A DNA stretch of 64,000 bases, taken from Halorussus limi (lineage in GTDB: Archaea; Halobacteriota; Halobacteria; Halobacteriales; Haladaptataceae). Within the stretch, counting starts at the first letter, position 1. Each line of letters starts with the position of its first letter. The DNA is taken from NCBI RefSeq assembly GCF_023238205.1, contig NZ_CP096659.1:2435626-2499625 (forward strand), read 5' to 3'. The position numbers and the translations under genes are program-made. Shown one piece after another: positions 43,443-49,482 of the stretch. The notes beneath the pieces were generated by a model, which had not been told where the DNA came from, searched no databases, and worked only from the letters and a program-made list of their open reading frames with translations.

Positions 43443-44531
43443 ATGAGTCAGAAATTCACGAGTCTACTCGCGGTAGTGCTGTTGCTCGCGGCGGGCGTCG
43501 CCCCGGTCGGAGCGGTCACCGGAGACGGCGCCGTCGCGAGCGCCGGAGCGGCGACCCAGACGAGTTGTTCGTTCCCCGTCACGGAGACGGACGCGACGGG
43601 AACCGAAGTCACGGTCGAACAGAAACCCGAGCGAGTCGTCACGCTCGCGCCGAGCGCGGCCCAGACGATGTGGGAAATCGGCGGGAAGTCACAGGTCGTC
43701 GGCGTCTCCCAGTACGCGACGTACTTGGAGGGGGCCGACTCCCGGACGAACATCTCGGGCGCCGGCCGGTCCTACGTCAACGTCGAGAAGGTCGTCTCGA
43801 CCGAGGCCGACCTCGTCCTCGCGCCGAACGTCATCCCGAACGAGACGGTCCAGAAGCTCCGGGAGGCCGGACTGACCGTCTTCAAGTTCGACTACGCGAC
43901 CTCCGTCGAGGACATCTACTCGAAGACGGAACTGATGGGCCGACTCACGGGTAACTGCGAGGGCGCGAACGAGACGGTCTCATGGATGAAAGACCGCATC
44001 TCGACGGTCCGCGACGCCGTGAAGGGCGAGGACCCGCCCCGCGTCCTCATCTCGCAGGGCGGCGGCTGGACCGCCGGAAACGGCACGTTCGTCGGCAACG
44101 TGGTCGAACTCGCCGGCGGCACCAACGTCGCGGCCGAGGCCAACATCTCGGGTTACGGGAAGATAAGCGAGGAGGTCGTCGTGCAGCAGAACCCCGAGTG
44201 GATAGTCCAACTCGGCGCGTTCGGCGCGTATCCGAAGACAGAAGCGTACAACGGTACCGCCGCCGTCGAGAGCGGACAGGTCCTCACGGTCAGCAACGAG
44301 AACATCAGCCAGCCGGCACCGCGAGTCGTCTACGCGGTCACGAAGATGGCGAAGGCGTTCCATCCGGAAGCCTACGCCGCGGCGAACGGAACCGACGAGG
44401 GCGCGATGCAGGAGGCGACGACCACGCAGACGACGACTGACGGCGGGTCTTCCGGAGGCGTCCCCGGATTCGGCGTCCCCGTCGCGCTCGTCGCGCTCGC
44501 GGGCGCGGCCCTGCTCGCGCGTCGGCCCTGA
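43443..44531 (+). CDS. btuF: Cobalamin-type ABC transporter substrate-binding protein with PGF-CTERM anchor
   Basis: The 362-residue product has a Sec signal peptide (about 7-25), a BtuF/FepB-like periplasmic binding domain ([28 protein letters not shown] and onward) and, after a Thr-rich linker, the tripartite C-terminal sorting signal [24 protein letters not shown] (PGF-CTERM). Archaeosortase would process and lipid-anchor it to the outside of the membrane. It is divergent from btuC/btuD, its probable partners. Cobalamin is the likely ligand from context, but other chelates are possible. Confidence 0.88.
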
Positions 44532-44601
44532 AGCGACTCGAAGACGCCTCTTTCTCGCGAGTTTCCTAAGTTGTTTAATGGCCGGGGCGAGACGTTGACG
44601 T

Positions 44602-44883
44602 ATGGTCGAGAAAGTGCTGTGGCCCGCCTACTTCGACGCGGAGAAGACCCGCAACGAGGGCCGACGGGTGGCCGCCGAGATGGCCGTCGACGAACCGACG
44701 GTCGACGAGATAGCGCAGGCAGTCCAGCAAGTCGGGTACGACGCGATAATCGAGCGCGACAAGGCCTACTCCCGGGAGAACTGGAACGAGCGCGGCCGGG
44801 TGCTGGTCCAGAACGCCGACGACTCCTCGAAGAACGACCTGATTCAGGCGGTCGCGGCGTACGTCGCGGCGCTCCGAGACTGA
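44602..44883 (+). CDS. srp19: Signal recognition particle protein SRP19
   Basis: The 93-residue RNA-binding protein opens with the archaeal SRP19 pattern [19 protein letters not shown], followed by [19 protein letters not shown] and RGRVLVQ. It binds SRP RNA helices 6 and 8 and helps SRP54 join. A TTTAATG box about 27 bases upstream suits a leaderless start. Its stop overlaps the gar1 start by one base (TGATG), linking two RNA-protein factors in one transcript. The SRP RNA gene itself was not seen in the window. Confidence 0.93.
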
Positions 44884-45514: not shown

Positions 45515-48265
45515 CTATCCCGCTGTCGCCGCCGTCGCGTTCTCCGTCCGGAACTCGACCACCGCGGGGTCGGTGACTATCTCGCCGTCGGGGTCGAGAT
45601 ACAACGTATCGACCTGCCCGCCGGACTCGATGAATCCGAAGGCTCGGTCGCCGTCGGTGTCGCGGTGGGCCGCGGCGAACACCACCTGCTGGCCGGACAG
45701 CGACTCGTCGACCGGCACGGACACGTTCTCGTACTCGCCGGGAGCGAGGTACTCCGAGACGCCGAGGAAGTTCCCGCTCCGGTCGTAGACCGCGACGAAC
45801 CCGCCCTCGGGCAGGTCGGCGGCCGCGACGGTGACCTGACCGTCGGCCGTCTGATTGTCGAGGCTGAGGGCCGCGGAGTCACCGGTTACTGTGGTCGTGG
45901 TGGTCGTCTGGGACGGCGTTGTCGTGGGCAGTTCGGTGGTCGTCGTGGTCGTCTGTGCCGTCGTGGTTGTAGTCGTCGGCTGAGTCGTGGTCGTCGTTGT
46001 TGCAGTGGTCGTGGTTGTCGTGGGCTGTTCAGTGGTGGTCGTCGTAGTGGTCTGAGTCGTCGTAGTCCGTTGTTCGGTTGTCGTAGTGGTCGTGGGCTGT
46101 TGGGTTGTCGTAGTGGTCGTCGGTCGTTCCGTGGTCGTGGTCGTCGTTGGCTGTTCGGTCGTCGTGGTCGTATCAGCCTGGACACCGGGCTGAGCGGTCG
46201 TGGTGGTGGTCTGAGTCGTGGTGGTCGTCTGCTGTTCGGTGGTCGTGGTGGTCTGACTCGTCGTGGTCGTCGGTTGGTCGGTCGTGGTGGTCGTGGTTGG
46301 CTGTTCTGTCGTCGTCGTGGTAGTCGTCTGGTCCGTGGTGGTAGTCGTCGGTTGCTCGGTCGTCGTAGTCCCTGTCGCGGTCGTCGTGGTCGTATCGGGA
46401 ACTGTCGTGACGACCGGGGTCGTGGTCGGTCCGGGCGCGGTCGTCGTCTCGGTCGTCGTGGTCTCCGGTTCCGGAGCGGTCTCGACGACCTCCGTCGCGA
46501 CCGCTGCGGCCGTCTCGCGGAGTTGCGCGGGGTCGGCCTCCGGTGACTCCGCGACGACCTGCGTCGCCTCCTCGGCACCCTCGGCCGCGGCCGTCACGAT
46601 GGTCTGCGGCGCGGTCACGTCGGCTTCCACCGCGGCCGCGGCCGCGCCGACCGCTGCGCCCTGTGCGACGGCGAGCGTCTGAGCCGGGTCGAGCGCCTCT
46701 ATCTCGCCGAGTTGCTCGACGGTCCCGGCCGATGCACCGTTCGCGGCCGCCTGAATCTGGACGACGCTCGCGGTCTGACTCTGTGAGACGGCCCCCGTGG
46801 CGGCCCCCTGCGCGGCGACCTGTATCTGCGTTACGTCCACCTGCTGGCGCTGGCTGGCGACGACCGCACCGTCGGCCGCGCCCTGTGCGGCGGCCTGAAT
46901 CTGGGTGACGCTGGCGTCCTGCGACTGGACGAGCGACCCGTACGCCGCGCCCCGACACGCGGCCTGCACCTGCTGGACGTTCACGCTCTGGACCTGCGTC
47001 ACGCCGCCCTTGGCCGCGCCGAGCGCGGCGGCCTGCACCTGTCGGACCGAGACCGATTGGCGCTGGACGGTGGCCGCGAGCGACCCGGCGGCCGCGCCCT
47101 GCGCGGCGACCTGAATCTGGACGACGTTGACTATCTGGACCTGTATCACGGTCACTTGGAGGAGCGCGCCGCGGGCCGCGCCGAGCGCGGCGGCCTGCAC
47201 CTGCTGGATAGATACCTGCTGAATCTGGGTGATTATCGCGCCCTGCGCGGCGCCCTCGGCCGCCAACTGAATTTGTTCGACCGTGACGCGCTGGGTCTGG
47301 CTGACCGCGCCGGTCGCCGCGCCCCTGCATCCGGCCTCGACCTTCTCGGCGGGCACTTCCTTCGGTTCTTTCACGCCGCCCTTGGCCGCCCCCAGCGCGG
47401 CGACCTGTATCTGTTTCACGTCGGCGCGCTGGACCTGCACCAGCGCCCCGGACGCGGAGCCTCGGGCCGCCGCTTGGAGTTGCGACACCTCGACGCGCTG
47501 GCGCTGGGCGAGTGACCCGTACGCCGCGCCCTGTGCGGCCTCCTGAACTTTGCCGACCGCGTCGACGTCTCGGCGAACCGCCGAGCGCGAAGCGCCCTCG
47601 GCCGCCGCCTGCGAGGCGACCTGAATCTGGGAGACGCTCGCCTGCTGGCGCTGGGCCACCGCGCCGTGGGCCGCGCCGTAGGACGCGCCCTGAATCTGCG
47701 CCACGTTCGCCTCCTGTGTCTGTACCAGCGCACCGCCGGTGGCGCCCCGGACCGCGGCCCGGATGGGGGCGACGGTGGGGCCGCGCTCGGCCGCCTGCGA
47801 CTGGAAGTGCAGCAGCGCGCCGTGGGCCGCACCGCGCGCGGCGACCAGAAGTTGCGCGACGTTCACGTCGGACTCGCGTTGGGACGCCGCGACCGCCCCG
47901 CGAACTGCGGCCTGCCGTCGCTCGGGCGTCACGGTCGCGCCCTGTATCTCCGCGAGTTGCGCGCCCTGACGCGCCCCGAGAACGGCCGCCTCTCGCGGGG
48001 TGAGGTCACCGACGTCCTGACGCGAGAGCGGGCCCTCGGTCACGTCGAACTGGGGACGGTCTGTTACTGTCCGAGGGAGCGTCTGCGGTGCGTCGATGGA
48101 CTCGGACGTACCTGTCTGCGGTGACCCCGTCGGTGAGCCGTCGGTCGCCGTTTCGGAGCCTCGGCGGTCGGCGTCTGCCGGACCGCCCACGGCAGGCGGG
48201 GCGAACCCGGCAGCAAGCAGCGAGGCGACGACGAGCAGTACCGTGAAGCGTCGGAGCGATGGCAT
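45515..48265 (-). CDS. Exported 916-residue repeat protein with Thr-rich stalk and DUF7282 domain
   Basis: A Sec signal peptide (about 8-28) is followed by a linker and about 17 tandem repeats (residues about 136-549) of a 23-residue unit, consensus V-x-Q-I-Q-x-A-A-x-G-A-A-x-G-A-x-x-Q-x-Q-x-x-x. A Thr-rich stalk (about 602-793) and a C-terminal DUF7282 domain (about 796-916; LDNQTADGQVTVAAADLPEG, GEYENVSVPVDESLSGQQ) follow. DUF7282 is common on haloarchaeal surface proteins. Short strands broken by Gly/Ala turns suggest a beta-solenoid, like trimeric adhesin heads, but helical folding is possible. No membrane anchor is visible at the C-terminus, so attachment must be indirect or the protein is released. 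Confidence 0.85.
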   Translation of the reverse strand: MPSLRRFTVLLVVASLLAAGFAPPAVGGPADADRRGSETATDGSPTGSPQTGTSESIDAPQTLPRTVTDRPQFDVTEGPLSRQDVGDLTPREAAVLGARQGAQLAEIQGATVTPERRQAAVRGAVAASQRESDVNVAQLLVAARGAAHGALLHFQSQAAERGPTVAPIRAAVRGATGGALVQTQEANVAQIQGASYGAAHGAVAQRQQASVSQIQVASQAAAEGASRSAVRRDVDAVGKVQEAAQGAAYGSLAQRQRVEVSQLQAAARGSASGALVQVQRADVKQIQVAALGAAKGGVKEPKEVPAEKVEAGCRGAATGAVSQTQRVTVEQIQLAAEGAAQGAIITQIQQVSIQQVQAAALGAARGALLQVTVIQVQIVNVVQIQVAAQGAAAGSLAATVQRQSVSVRQVQAAALGAAKGGVTQVQSVNVQQVQAACRGAAYGSLVQSQDASVTQIQAAAQGAADGAVVASQRQQVDVTQIQVAAQGAATGAVSQSQTASVVQIQAAANGASAGTVEQLGEIEALDPAQTLAVAQGAAVGAAAAAVEADVTAPQTIVTAAAEGAEEATQVVAESPEADPAQLRETAAAVATEVVETAPEPETTTTETTTAPGPTTTPVVTTVPDTTTTTATGTTTTEQPTTTTTDQTTTTTTTEQPTTTTTTDQPTTTTSQTTTTTEQQTTTTTQTTTTTAQPGVQADTTTTTEQPTTTTTTERPTTTTTTQQPTTTTTTEQRTTTTQTTTTTTTEQPTTTTTTATTTTTTQPTTTTTTAQTTTTTTELPTTTPSQTTTTTTVTGDSAALSLDNQTADGQVTVAAADLPEGGFVAVYDRSGNFLGVSEYLAPGEYENVSVPVDESLSGQQVVFAAAHRDTDGDRAFGFIESGGQVDTLYLDPDGEIVTDPAVVEFRTENATAATAG
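45887..46462 (-). repeat. Thr-codon low-complexity tract (surface protein stalk)
   Basis: A run of ACC/ACG/ACT codons broken by EQP, DQP, ERP and QQP steps encodes TTTTTEQPTTTT-like peptides. It probably forms an extended O-glycosylated stalk. The unit period of roughly nine residues in its middle suggests duplication by slippage. Confidence 0.8.
46619..47860 (-). repeat. Tandem 69-base (23-residue) repeats in the surface protein
   Basis: About 17 degenerate units encode the VxQIQxAAxGAAxGA pattern. Eight or so have exactly 23 residues; others carry 1-6 residue insertions at the same loop position (after GA, e.g. LLQVTVIQVQIVN). The unit is conserved at the protein level and the codons vary, so the array is old and selected, not a recent DNA expansion. 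Confidence 0.85.
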
Positions 48266-48441: not shown

Positions 48442-49482
48442 ATGGAGAATCGAACGCGCGTGTTCGCGGCCGCCGGGTTGACCGTCGCCATGTTCCTGCT
48501 GGTCCAACTCGGTGCGCTGGCGCTCGTCAAACCGTTTCAGCAGGCGGGCTACCAGCAGGTCGAGAACCCCTCCGACCCGACGAACAGTCTGGTCTACGTC
48601 GCGGCGGTACTGGTCCTGACCGGCGTGATGCTCGCCATCATCAAACTCGACGTGCAGTGGTTGCTCCGCGGGGCGCTCATCTTCACCAGCGGGTTGCTCT
48701 CGTGGTACGTCTTCTCGGTCGTGATTCCGGGGTGGGTCGTCGTGCAGTTCGGCGGCGCACCCCTCAACGTGGCGGCGCTGGCCGCGGCCGCGGGCGTCTC
48801 GTTGGCGCTCGCAGTTCACCCCGAGTGGTACGTCATCGACGCCGCGGGCGTCCTGATGGGCGCCGGCGCGGCAGGACTGTTCGGCATCAGTTTCGGCCTG
48901 CTCCCGGCCATCCTGTTGCTCTCGGTGCTGGCCATCTACGACGCCATCAGCGTCTACGGCACCGAACACATGCTGACGCTGGCCTCGGGCGTGATGGACC
49001 TCAAGATTCCCGTCATCCTCGTGATTCCGATGACGCTCTCGTACTCGTTCCTCGACGACGACGGGATGGCGGCGGAGTCGGAGGCCGAGACGGAAGCGAG
49101 CGCGGCCGACGGCGGCGAGGTCCCGGAGACGGACGCCGACGAAGCGGACGGCGAGGACGCCCACGCCGAGGCCGAGCGTCCGGACGCCGCCGACCGCGAC
49201 GTGTTCTTCATCGGCCTCGGCGACGCGGTGATGCCCACCGTGATGGTCGCCAGCGCGGCCTCGTTCGCGCCGCCGGAACCGCTCGTCTCCGGCCTCGCGC
49301 TCAACCTGCCCGCGCTCACGTCGATGGTCGGAACCATCGCGGGCCTGCTCGTGCTTCTCTGGATGGTCATGAAGGGCCGAGCGCACGCCGGACTCCCGCT
49401 CCTGAACGGCGGCGCTATCGGCGGCTATCTGGTCGGCGCGCTGGCCAGCGGAATGACGCTGATGCAAGCGCTGGGACTGTAG
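48442..49482 (+). CDS. Presenilin/SPP-type intramembrane aspartyl protease
   Basis: The 346-residue membrane protein has about nine helices and both catalytic motifs of the archaeal presenilin homologue family: YD (AIYDAISVYGT, Asp167) and GLGD (FFIGLGDAVMP, Asp261), plus a PAL-like GLPLLN near the C-terminus (about residue 325). Such proteases cut helices inside the membrane. Between the two catalytic helices lies a cytosolic loop of about 50 residues made almost only of Asp, Glu and Ala (about 205-252), longer than in well-known archaeal homologues. Substrates are unknown. Confidence 0.88.
   Translation: MENRTRVFAAAGLTVAMFLLVQLGALALVKPFQQAGYQQVENPSDPTNSLVYVAAVLVLTGVMLAIIKLDVQWLLRGALIFTSGLLSWYVFSVVIPGWVVVQFGGAPLNVAALAAAAGVSLALAVHPEWYVIDAAGVLMGAGAAGLFGISFGLLPAILLLSVLAIYDAISVYGTEHMLTLASGVMDLKIPVILVIPMTLSYSFLDDDGMAAESEAETEASAADGGEVPETDADEADGEDAHAEAERPDAADRDVFFIGLGDAVMPTVMVASAASFAPPEPLVSGLALNLPALTSMVGTIAGLLVLLWMVMKGRAHAGLPLLNGGAIGGYLVGALASGMTLMQALGL

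Follow-up and report, generated by a model that had tools for sequence, protein, structure and literature searches.

The repeat unit of classical alpha-solenoids is a pair of helices in 34 to 47 residues. Acidic surfaces are reported to be almost ubiquitous in halophilic proteins (PMC3787623), and many archaeal S-layer proteins carry a Thr-rich disordered region between their lattice and anchor segments (PMC8559796). Here we describe a gene in a 64,000-nucleotide stretch of Halorussus limi DNA (the window), whose product combines an array of 23-residue repeats with a Thr-rich stalk and one copy of DUF7282. The whole is best explained, with a probability of about 0.5, as a surface protein with a new helical head that acts as an adhesin or a matrix scaffold. 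In the literature collection searched, no paper mentions DUF7282 and none on the 23-residue repeat was found.

Layout and location of the protein

The open reading frame at 45515-48265 on the minus strand translates into a single protein of 916 amino acids, the parts of which are listed in Table 1. The first-pass annotation had described a surface protein built on about 17 repeats at 46619-47860, which corresponds to residues 136 to 549.

Table 1. Features of the repeat protein and neighboring genes (residues of the protein; nucleotide positions in the window)
Feature	Residues	Positions	Strand	Basis
Predicted signal peptide	1-28	48182..48265	-	Basic n-region LRR, then hydrophobic stretch
Polar linker after signal peptide	29-88	48002..48181	-	Translation
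Two degenerate N-terminal repeat units	89-135	47861..48001	-	Model helices; conserved in relatives
About 17 units of 23-29 residues	136-549	46619..47860	-	Profile scan, self-identity, model
Degenerate C-terminal helical segment	550-601	46463..46618	-	Model; last helix ends near residue 564
Thr-rich low-complexity stalk	602-789	45899..46462	-	Thr content, tandem-repeat DNA
DUF7282 (PF23951)	798-903	45557..45874	-	hmmscan, E 5.6e-27
Presenilin/signal-peptide-peptidase-type membrane protease gene		48442-49482	+	PF06550, E 8e-89
Peripla_BP_2 binding protein with PGF-CTERM motif, then SRP19		43443-44880	+	

The signal peptide was predicted from hydropathy and a reading of the n-region; the N-terminal 19-residue hydropathy is 2.05, and nearly all of the 42 relatives described below share this feature. 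Thr makes up 40% of the C-terminal 351 residues. The DNA of the stalk is a tandem repeat, its length differs between close relatives (188 versus 209 amino acids), and it is presumably O-glycosylated. The DUF7282 match scores 94.6 bits against a curated cutoff of 27, which places the domain in PF23951. Eleven DUF7282 matches occur in the window genome (G000), a sizeable set of surface-type proteins.

No C-terminal hydrophobic anchor (peak hydropathy, 0.36) and no PF18204 or PGF-CTERM match were found in the window protein, and a 98%-identical relative likewise lacks the anchor. A hydrophobic C terminus is present in relatives from Halorussus (L014, L016, and L018), Halorarius (L042), Halobaculum (L049), and Halorientalis (L050) and in L054. 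The signal peptide, the stalk, and these C termini together indicate that the protein lies outside the cell, in agreement with the secreted, Thr-stalked surface protein first proposed. With the hydrophobic anchor at the C terminus, the array of an anchored relative would form its outermost part, and DUF7282, where present, probably lies between array and membrane. The DUF7282 assignment holds, but for relatives with an anchor a tip position of this domain is probably incorrect.

Repeat units of the array

Using a position-specific profile scan with a threshold set from shuffled sequence, we identified 16 units above threshold, starting at residues 136, 165, 188, 211, 237, 260, 283, 306, 329, 353, 381, 407, 430, 453, 478, and 501; a degenerate 17th unit, seen in the scan and by eye, begins near residue 526. 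The spacings (29, 23, 23, 26, 23, 23, 23, 23, 24, 28, 26, 23, 23, 25, and 23) reduce to a base of 23 residues with additions of 1 to 6. Self-identity of the array at lag 23 is 0.276 (z = 11 versus shuffles), with a second peak at lag 4 (z = 4.5), a helical period. The repeat array first proposed is confirmed. The unit consensus is VxQIQxAAxGAAxGALxQxQxVS, in degenerate form VxQ[IV]QxAAxGAAxGA[LV]xQxQx[VA][STND].

The proposed bounds contain repeats, but they are too narrow: because 20 modeled helices span residues ~90 to 564, the array starts before and ends after 46619-47860, with two degenerate units before residue 136 (model residues 11-28 and 35-49 are helical) and one after residue 549. 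Extra residues sit after position 16 of the unit, and the first-pass annotation was mostly right in assigning all insertions to one loop; in the model, however, several 3-residue insertions extend the helix rather than the loop, giving helices of 21 to 22 residues. Alternating layers would be expected to produce a period-two (46-residue) super-repeat. Lag-2 identity is slightly higher than lag-1 identity (0.543 versus 0.512), but the signal is weak and in most groups falls short of significance, so that such a super-repeat is not claimed. Connectors enlarged by 8 or 16 residues (units of 31 and 39) occur in arrays of Halorussus (L015, L016, and L018) and of Natrialbaceae loci, and their inserts, e.g., QRQKITVEQ, copy the connector motif. 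Each Halosimplex array (L046 and L047) contains seven N-glycosylation sequons, several of them arising where a helix opens with Asn (NVT).

Predicted fold

AlphaFold2 was run on the full array, with 38 aligned sequences from haloarchaea as input; the best model had a mean pLDDT of 86.7 and a pTM of 0.87, with pLDDT falling across the five models to 39.2. For an eight-unit stretch of a Haladaptatus relative, 53% identical there, all five models reached a pLDDT of 86 to 89 (pTM, 0.89). Both models are all-helix, with one helix of 15 to 21 residues per unit, and no strand as long as 3 residues appears in either. In the sequence itself, consensus positions 1 to 16 show a 100-degree periodicity in hydrophobicity and variability, and at positions 16 to 23 the entropy moment peaks at 170 to 180 degrees, strict Q18, Q20, and V22 alternating with variable positions 17, 19, and 21. 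These two patterns indicate a unit made of a helix (positions 1 to 16) followed by an extended connector (positions 17 to 23).

The first-pass annotation had read VTQIQVAA and GAVSQSQ as short beta-prone segments and suggested a beta-solenoid adhesin in which they would form stacked strands. The Q18-x-Q20-x-V22 alternation with variable positions between, as well as Gln conserved at positions 3, 5, 18, and 20 (invariant at 18 and 20), is what such a fold would display. However, some 16 residues per unit are modeled as helix at high pLDDT with no strand, the VTQIQVAA segment forms the beginning of that helix, and positions 1 to 16 carry helical periodicity, so that a beta-solenoid is now highly improbable. 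A predicted plain helical array was also among the outcomes that the first-pass annotation had named as refuting its own reading. Of the two alternating segments only GAVSQSQ alternates as described; it is strand-like in sequence but modeled as an extended connector, and a plain loop leaves the alternation unexplained. An alpha/beta solenoid of leucine-rich-repeat-like layout would account for it, with parallel helices and extended return segments forming a Gln-laddered parallel sheet, the predictor having the topology wrong. Leucine-rich repeats typically have units of 23 residues, the unit length of this array, and a connector of 7 to 8 residues is long enough to return along a 16-residue helix. 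We regard this layout as unlikely, given that both models lack strands and that the structural matches are to antiparallel helical arrays.

In structure searches, designed antiparallel helical repeats head the match lists of both models. The designed helix-turn-helix repeat 8ugc matches sequentially (Z of 11.9 and rmsd of 8.5 over 261 aligned residues), as does the designed repeat DHR10 at lower score (Z of 5.8 and rmsd of 5.4 Å over 153). Four consecutive array helices also superpose in order on AmtB residues 215 to 339 (rmsd of 3.2 Å over 104 residues). The membrane helices of AmtB alternate in direction. From the sequential matches to AmtB and to the designed repeats, an antiparallel order of consecutive array helices is implied. 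Such Z scores can reflect a common arrangement, and the matches speak for general architecture rather than relationship. Foldseek TM-scores were low (0.11 to 0.37), indicating that no known natural solenoid among the matches listed is close to the array. On the strength of the predicted structure, the array is probably an alpha-solenoid in which the unit is a single Gly/Ala-packed helix.

Composition

The window array contains 6.6% Asp plus Glu, 6.8% Lys plus Arg, 15% Gln, and 25% Ala. Among 77 soluble open reading frames from the window and related loci, called mechanically and hence a rough yardstick, the median Asp plus Glu content is 17.7%, and Gln stays below 15% in all of them. Some Haladaptatus arrays have only 1.4 to 3.0% acidic residues and are net basic. 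For a haloarchaeal protein, the array is oddly non-acidic and almost uncharged. It thus poses a puzzle, an extracellular domain with 1 to 13% acidic residues where proteins normally need strong negative charge for solubility.

Neutral composition and GxxxG spacing would also suit a glycine-zipper array that associates with or inserts into the membrane instead of forming a soluble head, and the structural matches include AmtB, Rh proteins, urea transporters, and V-ATPase proteolipids. Hydropathy argues otherwise: the 19-residue peak is 1.55 in the window array and does not exceed 1.72 in the relatives, apart from L016, where the segment includes the signal peptide. Helices of ~16 residues are moreover short for a bilayer, and each contains conserved Gln. 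A membrane array is accordingly improbable, and a soluble helical head is the preferred reading.

Distribution and evolution

When 84,980 species genomes were scanned, 42 loci were recovered, all haloarchaeal. The search of other haloarchaea suggested at first annotation likewise recovered a family: single-sequence searches matched 22 of 40 whole genomes of relatives, and a profile matched 83 genomes among the 292 sampled from the class and 100 of 121 Natrialbaceae genomes, the latter mostly in single copy. In a phylum-wide sample of 294 genomes, the profile gave one marginal match outside the order (G547; E value of 8e-4), which was rejected as a member because it has a different, charged Ala/Lys/Glu helical repeat. 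The array family was therefore found only in haloarchaea among the genomes sampled; phage, plasmid, and viral collections contained no array relatives, and the window genome contained no second array locus.

The series of spacings is nearly identical in every Haladaptatus and takes a different but constant form in Natrialbaceae. Between Halorussus and Haladaptatus, orthologous units share 0.63 identity versus 0.54 for non-orthologous units, and relative to the nearest species the array has a dN of 0.008 and a dS of 0.134 (98% identity). The conserved spacings, the identity of orthologous units, and the dN/dS together argue that the array is of old date, fixed in structure and maintained by purifying selection, and that it is not a repeat in recent expansion. 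The stalk, 87% identical to that of the nearest species and different in length, changes faster than the array. Recent DNA duplication as the origin of the array was discounted, as units average 64% DNA identity; this value and a tandem-repeat finder that picks out only the stalk likewise point to an old array. The array is retained unit for unit across many genera, while the C-terminal modules are exchanged among relatives and comprise one to three DUF7282 domains, LTD, CARDB, beta-helix, and TSP3.

Gene neighborhood

In Halorussus, the repeat gene lies head to head with the membrane protease gene of Table 1, and a PF06550 peptidase (54% identity) lies upstream of the Halobaculum repeat gene (L049) as well. 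A DUF7344 gene is divergent from the repeat gene in Haladaptatus. At 23 Natrialbaceae loci (e.g., L022:3147-5209), the divergent genes form an operon for an ECF transporter of the biotin type (CbiQ-like, ABC ATPase, and BioY). This arrangement, the Peripla_BP_2 protein that with SRP19 lies near the Halorussus repeat gene, and cobalamin-type genes near the repeat gene on one Halorarius contig would fit a protein that captures a ligand such as a vitamin, the array serving as its binding surface. We consider that role very unlikely: the neighbors vary between clades, the Natrialbaceae arrangement represents one inherited event, and no feature of the array resembles a vitamin-binding fold. No neighbor gene in the loci compared across clades points to adhesion either. 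As neighbors change between clades and none is common to all, we draw no function from the neighborhood.

Proposed function

We propose that each 23-residue unit would form a helix of ~16 residues, with GxxxG and an Ala face, followed by an extended connector of ~7 residues (QxQxV), and that consecutive helices, running antiparallel, would be closely packed in an alpha-solenoid that is long and rigid. As the working head, the array would present a neutral Gln/Ala/Gly surface that favors partner docking in near-saturated salt, be it to further arrays, to the S-layer, to a polymer of the matrix, or to other cells. The mucin-like stalk would keep the array away from the cell, and the C-terminal beta-type modules (DUF7282 and the others exchanged among relatives) may be lineage-specific spacers or adaptors. 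The function itself, in which a rigid head would mediate adhesion or scaffold a matrix, is a tentative assignment somewhat short of even odds. In a bolder and rather unlikely version, neutral arrays would polymerize in near-saturated salt, side by side or end to end, to form a hitherto undescribed helical protein matrix or fiber on haloarchaeal cells; if so, salt-driven assembly would replace the usual acidic solubility.

Comparison with known systems

As the first-pass annotation had supposed, the repeat belongs to no named family: neither the single sequence nor the profile of the repeat region matched anything in NCBIfam, PHROGs, or PDB sequences, and matches in Pfam were at chance level. 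Within a known general kind, the repeat thus defines a real and new, undescribed family of secreted haloarchaeal proteins, present in most sampled Natrialbaceae genomes yet missing from the protein-family libraries searched.

Of known surface proteins, haloarchaeal DUF7282 (PF23951) proteins share that domain with the window protein, which has one copy; the array is nevertheless a separate element, since in other genera it is retained by relatives that have no DUF7282. The haloarchaeal S-layer glycoprotein is likewise secreted with a Thr-rich region, but the window protein has a helical array in place of a beta-rich lattice part and lacks the PGF-CTERM and C-terminal anchor.

Gly-zipper families, such as PF13441 (YMGG-like), have GxxxG small-residue helix packing in common with the array. 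PF13441 was matched weakly by 1 of 38 array members (E value of 0.029), below the cutoff and hence outside the family, and phage tape-measure proteins gave weak fold matches (E > 0.4). In contrast to both, whose matches fall below any cutoff, the array is built of regular 23-residue units and belongs to a secreted protein.

The closest likeness is to alpha-solenoids, both natural (TPR, HEAT, ARM, and TAL-effector) and designed (DHR and FD15), which like the array consist of tandem short helices joined by turns. The predicted extended antiparallel stack is common to both, and the top matches among solved structures are designed helical repeats; beta-catenin (ARM) and TAL-effector entries, among the matches listed, reached a Z of only 3.6 to 4.3 with an rmsd of 11 to 17. 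TPR, HEAT, ARM, and other named helical repeat profiles gave no match in Pfam, NCBIfam, or PDB sequences. Unlike classical alpha-solenoids, the array is extracellular, packs through small Gly/Ala residues, has no sequence relation found to them, and places one helix, not a helix pair, in each 23 residues. The array thus offers a natural helical repeat in which the predicted unit is one Gly/Ala-packed helix.
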